DNA of 64,000 nt from Haloprofundus salilacus. Its GTDB lineage: Archaea > Halobacteriota > Halobacteria > Halobacteriales > Haloferacaceae. Below are positions 15,234 through 22,929 of the stretch, one piece after another. Positions within the stretch are counted from its first letter, which is position 1, and every line of letters starts with the position of its first letter. The stretch is from assembly GCF_020150815.1 (NCBI RefSeq), contig NZ_CP083723.1, forward strand, positions 434,001 through 498,000, written 5' to 3'. Below the pieces are notes generated by a model that saw only the letters and a program-made list of their open reading frames with translations, had not been told where the DNA came from and did no database searches. Position numbers and translations under genes: made by a program.

Positions 15234-16376
15234 ATGGACATTACTGACATAGCACTCCAGGACTTCGTGGAACTGGAGGCCGACACCCGACTCGGGAAAG
15301 TCCGGTCTGCGTTCGAGCGCGAGAACCCGAAGGGTATCATCATCACCGACGACGGCGATTACGTCGGGGTGGTCGGCGAGAAGCAGTTGATTCAGTCGCA
15401 CATCGAAGATAACACGAAAGCCGCAGCGTTGATGCGCTCCGCGCCGCGCATCGACCGCCACGAAGACGTTCGCGAAGCGTCGCGGATGCTCATCGAAGGC
15501 GACACGCAGATCGCGCCGGTGTACGAAGGTGAGAAGCTCTGGGGAATCATCACCAGCGACGCAATTCTCGAAGCCGTCCACGACAATCTGGACGCGCTCA
15601 CCGTCGAGCAGATCTACACCGGAGACGTGGTGACCATCCGCGAGGAGGACAGCGTCGGCCAGGCGATCAACCGCCTGCGCGAGAACGGCATCTCGCGGCT
15701 CCCCGTTCTCAACGAGAACAGCAAACTCACCGGCGTGCTGACGACGCACGACATCACCGAATTCGTCGTCCGCAACGAGGCTCGCCAGGGAACCGGGGAT
15801 CGAAGCGGCGATCTCGAACGGATGCTCGACCTGCCCGTCTACGACCTGATGACGAGTCCGGTGTTCACGACGAACTCCGGTGAGTCGGTCAAGGACGCCG
15901 TCTCGCGGATGTTCGAGAACGACATCGCCGGACTGATAGTCACGCCATCGGACAACGACTCGAAGGTGCTCGGCGTCCTCACGAAGACTGACGTACTCCG
16001 GGCGCTCACCTACACCGAAGAGGAGCAGATGGACGTCCAGATTACGAACGTCGACCTGCTCGACACCGTCTCTCGGACCGAGCTCGTCGAGAGCCTCACG
16101 CAGGTCGTCGACAAGTATCAGGAGATGCAGGTCCACCACGCGCACCTCCGCTTCCACGAACACAAGGAGAAACTCCGTGGCACGCCGCTCATCCAGGCGC
16201 AGATCAGACTCCGGACGAGTCACGGACAGGTCGCAGGCTCCGGGGAAGGCTACGGCGCCGAACACGCCTTCCGCGTCGCCCTCGACAAGCTCGAACGCAA
16301 CGTTCTGGAGATGAAGGGCATCAACGCCGACGAGCAGTACCGCGGACAGCTGCTGCGGAAACTCGGCGAACTGTAA
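15234..16376 (+). CDS. four-CBS-domain protein with C-terminal ribosome-hibernation (S30AE)-like domain
   Basis: 380 residues: four CBS motifs in tandem (about 5-60, 65-118, 124-182, 201-262), each ending with the usual G(V/I)(V/I/L)(T/G)xxD/E element, for example GVLTTHDI and GVLTKTDV. CBS pairs bind adenine nucleotides and sense energy state. Residues ~266-362 form a different domain containing HHAHLRFHEHKEK, IQAQIRLRTSHGQ and GAEHAFRVALDKLERNV, which strongly resembles the end of bacterial HPF/YfiA ribosome hibernation factors. Inferred role: an energy-sensing ribosome- or RNA-binding protein. It stands alone and is followed directly by a copy of the 3'-flanking repeat. Confidence 0.75.
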   Translation: MDITDIALQDFVELEADTRLGKVRSAFERENPKGIIITDDGDYVGVVGEKQLIQSHIEDNTKAAALMRSAPRIDRHEDVREASRMLIEGDTQIAPVYEGEKLWGIITSDAILEAVHDNLDALTVEQIYTGDVVTIREEDSVGQAINRLRENGISRLPVLNENSKLTGVLTTHDITEFVVRNEARQGTGDRSGDLERMLDLPVYDLMTSPVFTTNSGESVKDAVSRMFENDIAGLIVTPSDNDSKVLGVLTKTDVLRALTYTEEEQMDVQITNVDLLDTVSRTELVESLTQVVDKYQEMQVHHAHLRFHEHKEKLRGTPLIQAQIRLRTSHGQVAGSGEGYGAEHAFRVALDKLERNVLEMKGINADEQYRGQLLRKLGEL

Positions 16377-17464: not shown

Positions 17465-18163
17465 TCAGAACTCCTCTGTCGCTTCCAGTCCCGACCCCGT
17501 GATTCGGAACGTCGCGCTCTCTCCGGCGGCTTTCGAGCGGTGTTTCTCGAGCGTCGCCCGGCGGTTGCCGCCGCGGAACCGGTCGAGGCGGACGACGACG
17601 CCGGTCCAGTGTTCGAGCGTGTGGCCGCCAAGCGCCCGCGCTCGGTCGGTGTCGGGGTCGGTGAACACCTGATTCGTCAGCACGACGGCGATGTCGTGTT
17701 TCCGCGCCAGCGACAGCAGATGCGTCACCTGCCGCGCCACGCGGCGGAGCGACTCGCCGCCCTCACCCTCCATCGTGCGTTCGAGGCGGTAAAAGCCCGT
17801 GGCGCTGTCGAGCACCACGAGGTCCGCTCGCTCGGCGAACTCCTCGACGTCGCGGACGGCCTCCTCCTGTTCGGCGAAGTCGTACGCTTCGGTGACGATG
17901 ACCCGCGAGGCGACGTTCTCGAACGTTTCCTCGTCGTCGACGCGCGCGTCGACGAGTTGGCGGAACCGGTCGATAGAGAGCCCCTCGGTGTCGATGTAGA
18001 CGACGGTCCCGCCCGCGGCGGCGACGTCGACGGCAGCCGACAGCGCAACGTTCGTCTTCCCCGCCGCCGGTGCGCCGTACACCTGCGTCACGGTCCCGCG
18101 TTCGAGACCACCGCCGAGCAGGTCGTCGAGCGGCGCACACCCCGTGGAGAGAGTTTCGGTCAC
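17465..18163 (-). CDS. radB: DNA repair and recombination protein RadB
   Basis: 232-residue RecA/RAD55-family paralogue of RadA, lacking RadA's N-terminal DNA-binding domain. It starts at a GTG (MTETLSTGCAPLDDLLGGGL when read as Met), the standard RadB opening; a longer open frame upstream is basic and not conserved. Walker A GAPAAGKT is at 30-37 and Walker B is ADLVVLDSAT; the segment ALGGHTLEHWTGVVVRLDRF is typical of RadB. RadB acts as a recombination mediator helping RadA load. It is divergent from the RuvC-like gene at 18328 with 164 bases between starts. Confidence 0.94.
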   Translation of the reverse strand: MTETLSTGCAPLDDLLGGGLERGTVTQVYGAPAAGKTNVALSAAVDVAAAGGTVVYIDTEGLSIDRFRQLVDARVDDEETFENVASRVIVTEAYDFAEQEEAVRDVEEFAERADLVVLDSATGFYRLERTMEGEGGESLRRVARQVTHLLSLARKHDIAVVLTNQVFTDPDTDRARALGGHTLEHWTGVVVRLDRFRGGNRRATLEKHRSKAAGESATFRITGSGLEATEEF

Positions 18164-18327
18164 GGTCGGAGTTGGCGCGGTCGGCGGAAAAAGACCCCGG
18201 TACGCCCCCGACGTGCCTCGCAGACGCCGCTTCAAGGCGCGTGACTGGGTCGGCCCGGCTCGGGTTCTCGGCTCCGACCGCGCGCTTCGGACCGTGTTTT
18301 TTAGCTTCCCGGCGTCCAACGAGAGCC

Positions 18328-19140
18328 GTGATAGTCGTCGCGACGGACGATTTCGAACTGTACCACGAGGCGGTCTCCGCTCTGCGCGAGCGCGGCGTGA
18401 CGTTCACGACGGTCCGCCTGGACGACGAACTCCCGGAGACGACGAGCGTCCTCGTCACGGCGCCAGACGACCCCGTCACCGACCTGTCGCCCGACGTGAC
18501 CCACATCAGCACGACCGCCGACGACGTTCGGAAGGCCGTCGAGGAGGCGCTCGCGGTCCTTCGCGGCGGCGGCGACCGGACGGTTATCGGCGTCGACCCC
18601 GGAACACGGCCCGGTATCGCCGTCCTCTCCGGCGAGATGGTCGTCGCCGCGTTTCAGGTTCCGCTCTCGCAGGCGGTCGACGCGATTCGCCGCGAAGCCG
18701 GAGACGCCGTCGACCCGCTCGTCCGCGTCGGCGACGGGGCGCGCCTGCAGAGCGCCCAGATCGTCAACGACCTCGAAGACGTGCCGGTCGAACTCGTCGA
18801 CGAGACGGGGACGACGCCGTATCTCGGGACGGGTGCACGCGGAATGGGCGACGTGCTCGCCGCGGTCAACATCGCCCGTCTGGAGGGCGACCGCGTAGAC
18901 TCCCGGGAGATAGAGCCGACGCCGGGCGAGTTGCAGGTCATCAAGGACCGCTCTCGGAAGCGCTCGGCTCAAAACCGGTCGATAGACGAGTCGCTGGCGC
19001 GTCGCGTCGCCGCGGGCGAGTTGAGTATCGACGAGGCGCTGGACGAGCACCGAAACGGAGCGAGAAGCGACGACCGCGACGGCAGCAACGAGACCGACTC
19101 AGCCAACGGCGACGCCACCGACGATGACGACGAAAACTGA
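18328..19140 (+). CDS. RuvC/RNase H-fold-like protein divergent from radB
   Basis: 270 residues, starting at GTG 18328 with a T-rich TATA-like element (TTTTTTAG, around 18296-18303) at leaderless spacing. Residues 1-80 form a small alpha/beta domain. Residues 85-190 follow the RuvC/RNase H pattern: VIGVDPGTRPGIAVLSG (first strand with Asp90), MVVAAFQVPL, a helix, PVELVDETGTT (Asp158/Glu159) and a closing helix GMGDVLAAVNIARL with Asp175. The tail (190-270) is charged and acidic. The fold suggests a structure-specific nuclease or an inactive relative. Position beside radB supports a recombination role, but function is inferred. Confidence 0.65.
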   Translation: MIVVATDDFELYHEAVSALRERGVTFTTVRLDDELPETTSVLVTAPDDPVTDLSPDVTHISTTADDVRKAVEEALAVLRGGGDRTVIGVDPGTRPGIAVLSGEMVVAAFQVPLSQAVDAIRREAGDAVDPLVRVGDGARLQSAQIVNDLEDVPVELVDETGTTPYLGTGARGMGDVLAAVNIARLEGDRVDSREIEPTPGELQVIKDRSRKRSAQNRSIDESLARRVAAGELSIDEALDEHRNGARSDDRDGSNETDSANGDATDDDDEN

Positions 19141-20472
19141 CTACTCCTCGGCCCGCTCGAACACCGCGTTCTCCGCGCGCCGCATCACCTCGCGAACTGC
19201 CAGTCCCGTCTCCCGCGTCACGACCATCGCGTCGTCGAACTCGGCGCTCCGGTCGTAGACGACGCCGTCGGCGTCGCTGGCGACTTTCACGCTCACCTCG
19301 TAGCGCTCGCCGTCGACCTCCAGCGTCGCCGTCTCGAATACTCTGGAAGCGACCCAGCGATGGCCCGCGCCGTGTTCGCGCACGCCGAGCGTTCCGGTCT
19401 CCTCGGCGAGTTTGCGGGCGACGCGCTCGGCGTCGGCCGGACGGACAATGACCTTCACCAGGTGACCGGGTCGGGATTTCTTCATCGTCGCTGGGAGGAT
19501 GGATACGTCGCGCGCGCCCGCGTCGGCGAGCGTCTCCTGCAGTCCGCCGAGCACTTCGGGCGGTGCGTCGTCGAGATTCGTCTCCAACACGGTGATCTCC
19601 TCGCGCGTGAGTCGACTTCCGCCGTCGCCGACGAGCGCCCGGAGCACGTTCGGGTGGTCGGGGAAGTCGTACCCTCCGGCGCCGTAGCCCGACTCCCGAA
19701 CGCGAATCGTCGGGAGGTGGTCGACGCCCTCGGCGAGGTGGGCGAGAATCGCTGCGCCCGTCGGCGTCAACAGCTCCGCCTCGACGGGACCGCCCTTCAG
19801 CGACCAGTCGGCGCGTTCGGCGATTTCGACGACGGCGGGCGTCGGCACCGGATAGACGCCGTGGCTCATCGATGCCTCGCCGCCGCCGGTCGAAAGCGGC
19901 GTAGTCACGACGCGTTCGATGCCCAAGTCGTCTACCAACAGACACGCGCCGACGATGTCGGCGATTGCGTCGTCCGCGCCGACTTCGTGAAAGTGCGTCT
20001 CGTCGAGGTCGGTGTCGTGGACGGACGCCTCCGCTTCCCCGAGGATGCGGAAGATGCGTAGGGCGTTCGCCTCGGCGCTGCTCGGAAGCGTCATCGACTC
20101 GACGATGTCGACGACTTCGGCGTACGCTCGGTGCGGTCCCGCGCCTTCGGCGTGGGTATGCGCGTGGCTGTGGCGGTGACCGTCGTCGTGGCCGTGGTCG
20201 TCGTGGCCGTGATGATGGTGATGACTCTCGTGGTCGTCGTGATGGTGGTCGTCGTGATGATGGACGTCGCGTCCGTCTCCGTCCCCGACGAGTACTATGT
20301 CGACCGCCGTCGAATTGATGCCGTTTTTCACCGTCGACCCGACCTCGTATCGAACGTCGAGCGCCTCCTCGACCGGCGACAGCGCTTCGGGGTCCGCCCC
20401 GACCGCCAGCAACGCGGCGAGAATCATGTCGCCGCTCGCACCCATTCGCCCGTCGAACGCGAGTGTGTCCAT
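19141..20472 (-). CDS. larC: nickel-pincer cofactor biosynthesis protein LarC
   Basis: 443 residues opening MDTLAFDGRMGASGDMILAA, the LarC signature. LarC inserts nickel into the pyridinium bis-thiocarboxylate cofactor of lactate racemase and other alpha-hydroxy acid racemases. Residues ~72-116 are a His/Asp-rich stretch (about twenty His), a likely nickel store; DETHFHEVGADDAIADI and PTPAVVEIAERADW are also family motifs. In Lactobacillus the protein is made from two frames by ribosomal frameshifting; here one continuous frame covers both halves. larB, larE and a racemase are not in this window. It ends directly against the stop of the RuvC-like gene. Confidence 0.9.
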   Translation of the reverse strand: MDTLAFDGRMGASGDMILAALLAVGADPEALSPVEEALDVRYEVGSTVKNGINSTAVDIVLVGDGDGRDVHHHDDHHHDDHESHHHHHGHDDHGHDDGHRHSHAHTHAEGAGPHRAYAEVVDIVESMTLPSSAEANALRIFRILGEAEASVHDTDLDETHFHEVGADDAIADIVGACLLVDDLGIERVVTTPLSTGGGEASMSHGVYPVPTPAVVEIAERADWSLKGGPVEAELLTPTGAAILAHLAEGVDHLPTIRVRESGYGAGGYDFPDHPNVLRALVGDGGSRLTREEITVLETNLDDAPPEVLGGLQETLADAGARDVSILPATMKKSRPGHLVKVIVRPADAERVARKLAEETGTLGVREHGAGHRWVASRVFETATLEVDGERYEVSVKVASDADGVVYDRSAEFDDAMVVTRETGLAVREVMRRAENAVFERAEE

Positions 20473-20703: not shown

Positions 20704-22929
20704 ATGAACGAAGTCCAACTCGAAGTGGCGAAAGCGTACCCGAACGATTCGGGGCGCGGTATCGCCCGTCTCGACCCGGACACGCTTCTCCACCTGAAGC
20801 TCTCACCGGGCGACATCATCGAAATCGAAGGCGGTGAGACGACCGCTGCGAAGGTCTGGCGCGCTGACCGCCAGGACTGGAACACCGACACCGTCCGCAT
20901 CGACGGCTTCACCCGCCAGAACGCCGACGTCGGCATCGGCGAACGCGTGACGATTCGGAAAGCCGAAGCGAAGAAGGCGAACAAACTGGTGCTCGCGCCG
21001 CCCGAAGAGGCGAGCGTCCAGTTCGGATCCGACGCCGCCGGAATGGTCAAACGCCAGATTCTGAAACGGCCGGTCGTCGAACGCGACATCGTTCCCGTGA
21101 TGTCGAGTACGAACCACCCGTTCATGCGCTCGCCGGGCCAAGCGATTCCGCTCATCGCCGTTGAAACGGACCCATCGGGCGTCTGTCTCATCACCGAAGA
21201 CACCGAGGTCGAACTCCGCGAGGAGCCGATTTCGGGCTTCGAGCGCGCGCAGGGCGGCATCACCTACGAGGACATCGGCGGCCTCCAGGGCGAGATTCAG
21301 CGCGTCCGCGAGATGGTCGAGTTGCCGATGAAGCACCCGCAGATCTTCAAGAAGCTTGGCATCGAGCCGCCGCAAGGGGTGCTTTTGCACGGCCCACCCG
21401 GCACCGGGAAGACCCTGCTCGCGAAAGCCGTCGCCAACGAGACCTCGGCGAGTTTCTTCTCCATCGCCGGTCCCGAGATCATCTCGAAGTACTACGGCGA
21501 GTCCGAACAACAGCTCCGCGAGATCTTCGAGGACGCCAAGGAGGAGTCGCCCGCCATCATCTTCATCGACGAACTCGACTCCATCGCGCCGAAGCGCGAG
21601 GACGTCACCGGCGAGGTCGAACGCCGCGTCGTCGCCCAACTGCTGACGATGATGGACGGTCTCGAAGCCCGCGGTCAGGTCATCGTCATCGCGGCGACCA
21701 ACCGCGTCGACTCCGTCGACCCGGCGCTTCGCCGCCCCGGTCGGTTCGACCGCGAGATCGAAATCGGTGTCCCCGACGAGGTCGGTCGCAAGGAGGTTCT
21801 CCAGATCCACACCCGCGGCATGCCGCTGTCGGACGACGTGAACCTCGACCACCTCGCCGACGAGACCCACGGCTTCGTCGGCGCCGACATCGAGAGCCTG
21901 ACGAAGGAAGCGGCGATGAAGGCGCTGCGGCGCTACCTCCCCGAGATAGACCTCGACGAGGAGGATATCCCGCCGAGCCTCATCGACCGGATGATCGTCA
22001 AACGCAAGGACTTCAGCGGCGCACTCGGCGAAGTCGAACCGAGCGCGATGCGCGAGGTACTCGTCGAACTCCCGAAGATATCGTGGGACGACGTCGGCGG
22101 CCTCTCCGACGCCAAGCAGTCGGTCAAGGAGTCCGTTGAGTGGCCACTAACGACGCCCGAGAAGTTCGACCGGATGGGAATCGAAGCACCCAAAGGCGTG
22201 TTGCTGTACGGCCCGCCGGGCACCGGCAAGACGCTGATGGCGAAAGCCGTCGCCAACGAGACGAACGCGAACTTCATCTCGGTGCGCGGTCCGCAACTGC
22301 TGTCGAAGTGGGTCGGCGAATCCGAGAAGGCGATCCGCCAGACGTTCCGCAAGGCGCGGCAGGTGAACCCGACTGTCATCTTCTTCGACGAACTCGACAG
22401 TCTCGCCCCGAGTCGAGGCCAGGAGATGGGCAACAACGTCTCCGAGCGCGTCGTCAATCAACTGCTGACCGAACTCGACGGTCTCGAAGAGATGGGCGAC
22501 GTGATGGTCATCGGCGCGACCAATCGGCCGGATATGATCGACCCCGCGCTCATCCGCTCGGGTCGCTTCGACCGCCTCGTGCTCATCGGCGAACCCGACG
22601 AGGAAGGTCGCGAGCAGATTCTGAAGATTCACACGCAGAACAGCCCGCTCGCGCCGGACGTGAGCCTCCGCGAGATTGCCGAGATAACCGACGGCTACGT
22701 CGGCTCCGACTTGGAGAGCATCGCCCGCGAGGCGGCCATCGAGGCGCTCCGCGAGGACGACGACGCCGACGAGATCGAGATGCGGCACTTCCGGAAGGCG
22801 ATGGAAAACGTCCGCCCGACTATCACCGAGGACCTGATGGACTACTACGAGCAGATGCGGGACCAGTTCAAGGGCGGCGGCCGCGATCAGTTCGCCGAAC
22901 GCAGCGGCGGTCGGATCGGCTTCCAGTAG
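20704..22929 (+). CDS. cdc48: Cdc48/VAT family AAA+ ATPase
   Basis: 741-residue unfoldase of the archaeal p97/VAT type. The N-terminal domain (1-190, double-psi barrel plus four-stranded barrel) is followed by two AAA modules, each with GPPGTGKT (around 231 and 503), a Walker B Asp-Glu ([28 protein letters not shown]) and arginine fingers in RRPGRFDRE and IRSGRFDRL. It probably extracts and unfolds substrates for the proteasome. The C-terminus ([18 protein letters not shown]) is short, with no hydrophobic-Tyr proteasome-docking motif. Length is standard with no intein. TATA-like ACTTATC (~20656) gives a short leader. A clear copy of the 3'-flanking repeat follows the stop at once. Confidence 0.96.

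Follow-up and report, generated by a model that had tools for sequence, protein, structure and literature searches.

A radB-adjacent archaeal gene for a putative nuclease with a predicted RNase H-like core of the YqgF/RuvX/Tex type

In Haloprofundus salilacus, a gene for a protein of 270 amino acids (18328-19140, plus strand) stands back to back with radB, the gene for a recombination mediator (17465-18163, minus strand). All positions are those of the window, the stretch of 64,000 nucleotides that was analysed. A preliminary description took the product for an RNase H-like protein with a RuvC-type active site, and proposed that it could be an extra nuclease or a scaffold lacking catalysis. 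This raises the question of which kind of RNase H-like protein is kept beside radB and what it might do there.

Gene and predicted fold

The open reading frame begins with GTG, and the mechanical list of frames contained a longer one in addition, starting at 18070. The frame and the motif positions of the preliminary description are correct, with GVDPG at residues 88-92, VDETG at 157-161, and GMGDVLAAVNIARL at 172-185, which confirms how it numbered Asp90, Asp158/Glu159, and Asp175. Among 73 distinct haloarchaeal copies, 71 align from residue 1 and all 71 of these start with GTG, while for the remaining two, L055 and L064, the local alignment starts within the gene. The closest named match is from Haloprofundus marisrubri, with 86% identity. 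Since the gene is carried by 43 of 60 genomes of relatives, it is a real and conserved gene. It is under purifying selection (dN/dS 0.19-0.29 for the whole protein against four close relatives, calculated from the dN and dS columns).

The divergence from radB was also read correctly. We placed the start of radB at the GTG of VTETLST, which is a choice rather than a fixed position because the aligned codon is also GTG in only 11 of 47 relatives. With this start, the intergenic region (18164-18327), as read from the sequence, is 164 bp long. It contains a TATA-like TTTTTTA at 18297-18303, 25-31 bases upstream of the start of the 270-amino acid gene, and, mirrored on the radB side, an A-rich run at 18187-18196, 24-33 bases before the chosen radB start; both elements come from reading the letters only.

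AlphaFold2, run with 68 haloarchaeal sequences, modelled the 270-amino acid protein with a mean pLDDT of 88.0 and a pTM of 0.64. The predicted model has three parts, which are a Rossmann-like part (residues 1-82), an RNase H-like core (83-192), and C-terminal helices (199-249). The N-terminal part (18328-18573, plus strand) is predicted to be a small Rossmann-like alpha/beta domain with conserved T6, D8, and F9, and residues 1-83 by themselves gave an AlphaFold2 pLDDT of 88.7. Its structural matches were generic (Rossmann, receiver, and PurE-like, best Z 8.9) and reflect only a common Rossmann-like arrangement, so we claim no function for this domain. The C-terminal helical tail (residues 193-248; 18904-19071, plus strand) is conserved, the commonest residue having a mean share of 0.64 over residues 193-245; it has a basic stretch at 206-217 and is followed by a variable acidic end.

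The core (18574-18903, plus strand) was delimited with AlphaFold2, VIA-align, and hhalign. Its predicted elements are strands 85-90, 96-101, and 104-110, helix 113-125, strand 131-135, helix 139-148, strand 154-157, and helix 173-183. This is the beta-beta-beta-alpha-beta-alpha-beta-alpha order of the RNase H superfamily (resolvase/Tex clade). With VIA-align, we compared the core (residues 82-192) with Foldseek's best 1000 PDB chains. It matched Tex (3bzc; Z 11.3, rmsd 3.5, 108 aligned residues), RuvX (7ess; Z 11.1, rmsd 2.7, 106 aligned, 24% identity), Spt6 (Z 10.7), and Thermus thermophilus RuvC (6s16; Z 10.4, rmsd 4.1, 108 aligned). The IS110-type bridge-RNA recombinases IS621 and ISCro4 also reached a Z of about 11, equal to RuvX, through the shared fold only. 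The Z-scores of Tex, IS621/ISCro4, RuvX, Spt6, and RuvC lie within about 1 of each other, and thus we regard them as tied. Proteins of the actin-like fold matched the core lower (pantothenate kinase Z 9.5, Kae1 Z 8.5).

Foldseek returned nothing from PDB at E <= 0.001, its first rows including Argonautes, pantothenate kinases, and Ppx/GppA proteins. Against viral predicted structures, it gave three matches at E <= 0.001, and several of the viral models among the matches listed are named RuvC-like or Holliday junction resolvase. It is well supported, by the predicted model together with profile comparisons, that the middle domain has an RNase H fold of the resolvase kind. The preliminary description, which had proposed comparing a predicted structure with RuvC, YqgF, and DUF460, was therefore right in calling the protein RNase H-like, and the prediction did not return a different fold.

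Active-site layout and relationship to known families

Two alignments were used for the active site. The first comprised the 73 distinct haloarchaeal sequences, after the truncated copy at L047 and duplicates had been dropped. The second comprised 31 sequences, 11 of them haloarchaeal and 20 taken from the 28 genomes that belong to other families within the phylum. All 73 haloarchaeal sequences have the same five acids, Asp90, Glu155, Asp158, Glu159, and Asp175, and thus the order D...VDE...D pointed out earlier is not a chance arrangement. D90, E155, E159, and D175 are also identical in 31 of 31 sequences, the 20 distant relatives included, while D158 is kept in 29 of the 31 and is Asn in two. 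All four acids that had been proposed for a conservation check (D90, D158, E159, and D175) are therefore invariant in the haloarchaeal set, far from being lost.

Asp90 (codon 18595-18597, plus strand) is the first acid at a catalytic position and lies on strand 1. Glu155-Leu-Val-Asp158-Glu159 (18790-18804, plus strand) brings acids to strand 5 and just after it, at the position of DER in YqgF and SEAG in Tex. Asp175 (codon 18850-18852, plus strand) is the last acid at a catalytic position, on the C-terminal helix of the core. The acids of the RNase H superfamily on strand 1, in the sheet, and on the C-terminal helix are thus present as D90, E155/D158/E159, and D175.

The literature separates two layouts. 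As described in the passages on active sites in PMC9601230, a glutamate ends strand 4 in RuvC and two putative catalytic residues lie on the last helix, while in YqgF a glutamate ends strand 5 and one catalytic residue lies on the last helix. The strand-5 layout is likewise stated for RuvX and Tex, against strand 4 in RuvC, in the corresponding passage of PMC3985635. In the protein studied here, strand 4 covers residues 131-135. Directly after it, 72 of 73 haloarchaeal sequences have D136, whereas the 20 sequences from other families have S, R, H, or N there. Conserved acids are found at and after strand 5 (154-157), and D175 is the sole acid on the last core helix (173-183), as in YqgF and RuvX. 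Since the second acid follows strand 5 and not strand 4, the assignment of the active site to the YqgF/RuvX/Tex type rather than the RuvC type is well supported. The preliminary interpretation therefore stands in its outline, a resolvase-kind RNase H fold beside radB in a genome that separately encodes one Hjc, but its RuvC-type active-site order has to be replaced by the YqgF/Tex type.

Profile comparisons gave a similar placement. With single sequences of E. coli YqgF and RuvC, the comparison was too weak to be of use (a single Tex sequence scored 24.7), and thus alignments were built. With hhalign, a 39-sequence profile of the family was compared with shallow alignments of 8 YqgF sequences, 8 Tex domains, and 23 DUF460 domains. 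The family matched Tex with a score of 44.3 over 121 columns (probability 86), YqgF with 41.5 over 103 columns (probability 82), and DUF460 with 43.6 over 45 columns only (probability 87). The highest scores in 100 column shuffles per target were 19.8 for YqgF, 21.5 for Tex, and 23.6 for DUF460, and reversed targets scored 12.2, 14.1, and 10.2, respectively. YqgF and Tex scored 30.1 against each other, and DUF460 and YqgF 21.6. Because 41.5 and 44.3 exceed 30.1, the radB-side family appears closer to YqgF and to Tex than these two are to each other, as judged by this profile test with shallow alignments.

In the alignment with YqgF, D158-E159 is matched to the D-E of DER and D175 to the last-helix Asp. 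The alignment with Tex pairs GDGARL with GNGTAS, VDETGTTPYLGT with VSEAGASVYSAS, and AAVNIAR with GAVSIAR, and places a four-residue Tex insertion ahead of the last helix. In gapless register, the position of Asp175 is occupied by Ser or Thr in seven of the 8 Tex sequences and by Glu in one. A match to PHROG 1770, named Holliday junction resolvase, was also found over residues 84-182 (17.3 bits, E 0.0072).

Compared with these families, the protein is like each in part. As in the bacterial YqgF/RuvX family (PF03652), its RNase H core has an acidic residue in strand 1, a D-E pair following strand 5 with [ST][ST] two residues further, and a single Asp on the last helix. Unlike YqgF/RuvX, which is a single compact domain of about 140 amino acids (138 in E. 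coli YqgF), it is archaeal, has 270 amino acids with a separate N-terminal domain and an extra C-terminal part, and is missed by the Pfam model; the 8 YqgF sequences offer no fixed equivalent of its invariant Glu155. With the RuvC-like domain of Tex (PF16921), it shares the longest profile alignment and a structural Z of 11.3, but Tex is larger (773 amino acids in E. coli, with further domains) and the present protein is a single frame of 270; moreover, no acid is conserved in Tex at the Asp175 position, where the radB-side protein keeps one. DUF460/COG2433 (PF04312) is likewise archaeal and has the GxDPG strand, but its profile match is confined to 45 columns, and DUF460 matches above the cut-off sit in open frames of 393-1066 amino acids. 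The genome encodes one separate DUF460 protein of 657 amino acids. RuvC shares the RNase H core and the GxDPG start, but the radB-side family keeps no acid after strand 4 outside the haloarchaea and has one acid on the last helix, where RuvC has two. Hjc and Hef have folds that differ from that of this protein, and we propose that it would work on DNA intermediates like theirs.

None of the Pfam and NCBIfam models tried captures the family. For the window protein, Pfam listed only VbhA and DUF460, both under the cut-off (DUF460 at 15 bits against a 28-bit cut-off), and no NCBIfam model reached its cut-off. The DUF460 model scored 19-22 bits on five copies from family f28. RuvX is absent from the 20 Pfam families matched by any of the 68 family members, and no Tex-family Pfam match was found for the window protein or the 68 members. 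A scan of the whole genome gave no match to RuvX (PF03652) or Tex (PF16921), and PADLOC gave no match. VbhA, Big_3_3, PASTA, HTH_35, and others in Pfam (judged by best E-values only for members other than the window protein) and ANT(9) in NCBIfam are chance-level matches and were rejected. So were THR1 and an undecaprenyl synthetase, which came up in a PDB sequence search with the profile; the single-sequence query matched none. In the open literature searched, we found no paper on this family or on a YqgF/RuvC-like protein with RadB in archaea.

Distribution and gene neighbourhood

In a survey of 392 genomes of the phylum (match threshold E <= 0.01), 109 had some match. In 89 of them this was the radB-side gene, and 20 had weak matches of the DUF460 kind, which were not counted (E 0.001-0.01, 15-18 bits, within open frames of 408-691 amino acids; most are short and lie near strand 1). 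The weak matches in G061 and G127 and a second match in G076 are at the positions of DUF460 proteins. The 89 genomes comprise 61 in the window's own taxonomic order (one with the gene split over two contigs) and 28 elsewhere (one with the gene in pieces). At G078:C14:26816-27562, the gene is present as three matched pieces, one with an internal stop, which reflects decay or an assembly error. The gene is missing from 303 of the 392 genomes, while radB is present in 388. In genus g13, none of the 10 listed genomes has the gene, but all keep radB (G016, G120, G126, G138, G148, G157, G212, G269, G379, and G397), and no shared replacement gene was seen at three loci of this genus (L162-L164). Where the gene is absent, the neighbours at the radB locus vary from genome to genome by a crude gene call.

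Outside cellular chromosomes, no match was found in 50,697 phage records, and in IMG/VR 73 stretches fitted a pattern and none was confirmed. There is one plasmid copy, annotated as hypothetical protein. Natronorubrum bangense carries the gene with radB both on the chromosome (L010) and on the 828-kb plasmid unnamed1 (L009); the two copies have equal identity and extent against the query, suggesting a recent duplication or an assembly effect.

The positions of both the gene and radB were known in 85 of the 89 genomes (G240, G274, G009, and G102 were left out). The two are divergent within 600 bp in 57 of the 85 and divergent within 3 kb in 8 more, making 65 of 85, Methanocella included. In the remaining 20, they are far apart on the same contig (7) or on different contigs (13). 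In one of these, G249, the pair is split by a contig end, the first 31 residues lying 109 bp from radB, and thus 19 remain. Outside the window's taxonomic order, the close pair is kept in 15 of 28 genomes. The 12 genomes sampled from families f28, f40, and f44 that have the gene carry it at a distance from radB or on a separate contig, and in four f28 loci checked radB remains near larC. Setting G249 aside, the gene is also apart from radB in 7 haloarchaeal genomes.

A scan with single-sequence patterns, which reach close relatives only, found 48 loci among genomes of named species. At these loci, radB was in the fetched stretch in 47, always divergent, and the exception (L047) is at a contig end. 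The CBS gene was present at 39, larC at 17, and cdc48 at 16, so radB is the most stable partner of the gene among the 48. Other neighbours were seen in families f28, f40, f44, and f25. In family f28, two genomes place the gene shortly downstream of a FEN1/XPG gene rather than beside radB (L112, 6565-8652; L116, 6145-8237). In families f40 and f44, with neighbours scanned in two genomes each, DUF373 genes lie near it. On its other side, two f25 genomes carry a NERD nuclease-like gene (L108, 5825-6781; L114, 7719-8756).

Three more genes accompany the pair in the window. The gene at 15234-16376 (plus strand) presumably encodes a CBS-domain protein, a name taken from the literature. The gene at 19141-20472 (minus strand) we take to be larC-like, in agreement with the LarC annotation of HVO_2381, and that at 20704-22929 (plus strand) we likewise take to be a cdc48-type AAA ATPase gene. 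To our knowledge, larC and cdc48 have no role in recombination. The LarC-like protein has a very histidine-rich stretch, encoded at 20170-20260, which is possibly metal-binding. The three genes are the positional counterparts of HVO_2384, HVO_2381, and HVO_2380 of Haloferax volcanii. In the entries and passages concerned, HVO_2380 is entered for Cdc48a (PMC10470531), HVO_2381 is a LarC family protein (PMC8305020), HVO_2383 is RadB, and HVO_2384 is a CBS protein that carries a ribosome-hibernation domain. The order CBS, radB, gene, larC, and cdc48 and the locus numbers leave HVO_2382 as the counterpart of the 270-amino acid gene, and therefore it is probably the Haloferax volcanii member of the family. 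HVO_2382 appears in PMC10470531 as an uncharacterized protein of interest in a genome-neighbourhood network with Cdc48a and uncharacterized proteins.

Possible functions

Between the two options of the preliminary description, the putative extra nuclease is the better guess. We think there is about an even chance that the protein is an archaeal nuclease with a YqgF/RuvX/Tex-type core that processes branched recombination or fork intermediates alongside RadA and RadB. This processing role is proposed because of the divergent pairing with radB. The FEN1/XPG gene next to it in two f28 genomes adds a further DNA-repair context and was counted in favour of the nuclease. So was a report on the counterpart of the CBS neighbour, since the HVO_2384 protein is said to bind RadA and RadB in a personal communication cited in PMC3820547.

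From the site layout and the pairing, we infer metal-dependent catalysis, a branched nucleic-acid substrate, and a partnership with RadB. Asp90 on strand 1, Glu159 helped by Asp158 or Glu155 at strand 5, and Asp175 on the last helix would bind a divalent metal, and the metal-bound site would cut the backbone of a branched nucleic acid. The small N-terminal Rossmann domain and the basic C-terminal helices might supply binding to a partner or to the substrate. The substrates may be Holliday-like junctions, flaps, or R-loops made by RadA with RadB, and the role would be accessory to Hjc and Hef. Against a tight coupling with radB, radB is present in 388 of 392 genomes and the gene in 89, genus g13 does without the gene, and 19 or 20 of 85 pairs are separated. 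Moreover, larC and cdc48 are often nearby, and thus part of the clustering may be inherited order.

The protein might instead be an RNA-processing nuclease acting on rRNA, structured RNA, or possibly R-loops, and its place beside radB would then have other reasons. The literature on YqgF is split between junction and RNA substrates, and we therefore retained this explanation, though we consider it unlikely. The activity of YqgF is itself disputed: according to PMC9601230, some YqgF proteins are reported to cut junctions, the E. coli and Deinococcus proteins act on RNA, and the Deinococcus protein cuts RNA and not junctions. The active-site layout is the same as that of YqgF, and the ribosome-hibernation domain of the CBS neighbour's counterpart would also fit an RNA substrate. 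However, the pairing with radB in 65 of 85 genomes and the FEN1 neighbour in two f28 genomes speak against it, and absence from 303 of 392 genomes would be unexpected for a core rRNA-processing enzyme.

It is improbable that the protein is a scaffold or adaptor of RadB/RadA with a non-catalytic RNase H fold, which was the second option of the preliminary description and which Tex may be. Tex has the top profile score, and a passage in PMC3985635 notes that it lacks the third carboxylate and as of 2014 had no corroborated nuclease activity. The radB-side family, however, keeps acids at all catalytic positions, including Asp175 where Tex has no conserved acid, in 73 of 73 and 31 of 31 sequences except for two D158N, and this conservation argues against a scaffold lacking catalysis. 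About as improbable is that closeness to radB is an inherited gene order with no functional link and that the protein has another nucleic-acid or nucleotide role, since radB accompanies the gene at 47 of 48 loci, always divergent, against 39 for CBS, 17 for larC, and 16 for cdc48, even though larC and cdc48 travel in the same cluster, the gene is apart from radB in the 12 sampled f28/f40/f44 genomes and 7 haloarchaeal genomes, and radB is kept where the gene is absent.

For the putative nuclease that we prefer, the broader meaning is more tentative. Possibly, though we would not bet on it, this is an archaeal family of RuvX/Tex-type junction or R-loop nucleases dedicated to work with RadB in haloarchaea, Methanocella, and several further lineages. 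It would then be a resolvase in addition to Hjc and Hef and a catalytically intact relative of the Tex/Spt6 RNase H domain. A review of repair in Haloferax volcanii names Hjc and Hef as Holliday junction resolvases in its passage on these enzymes (PMC7776575). The gene beside radB would add a third, RuvX-like candidate, possibly an overlooked junction-processing enzyme of archaea. As its predicted counterpart HVO_2382 is in a genetic model organism, redundant junction processing would be directly testable there. The family may also be an archaeal link from bacterial YqgF to the Tex/Spt6 domain.
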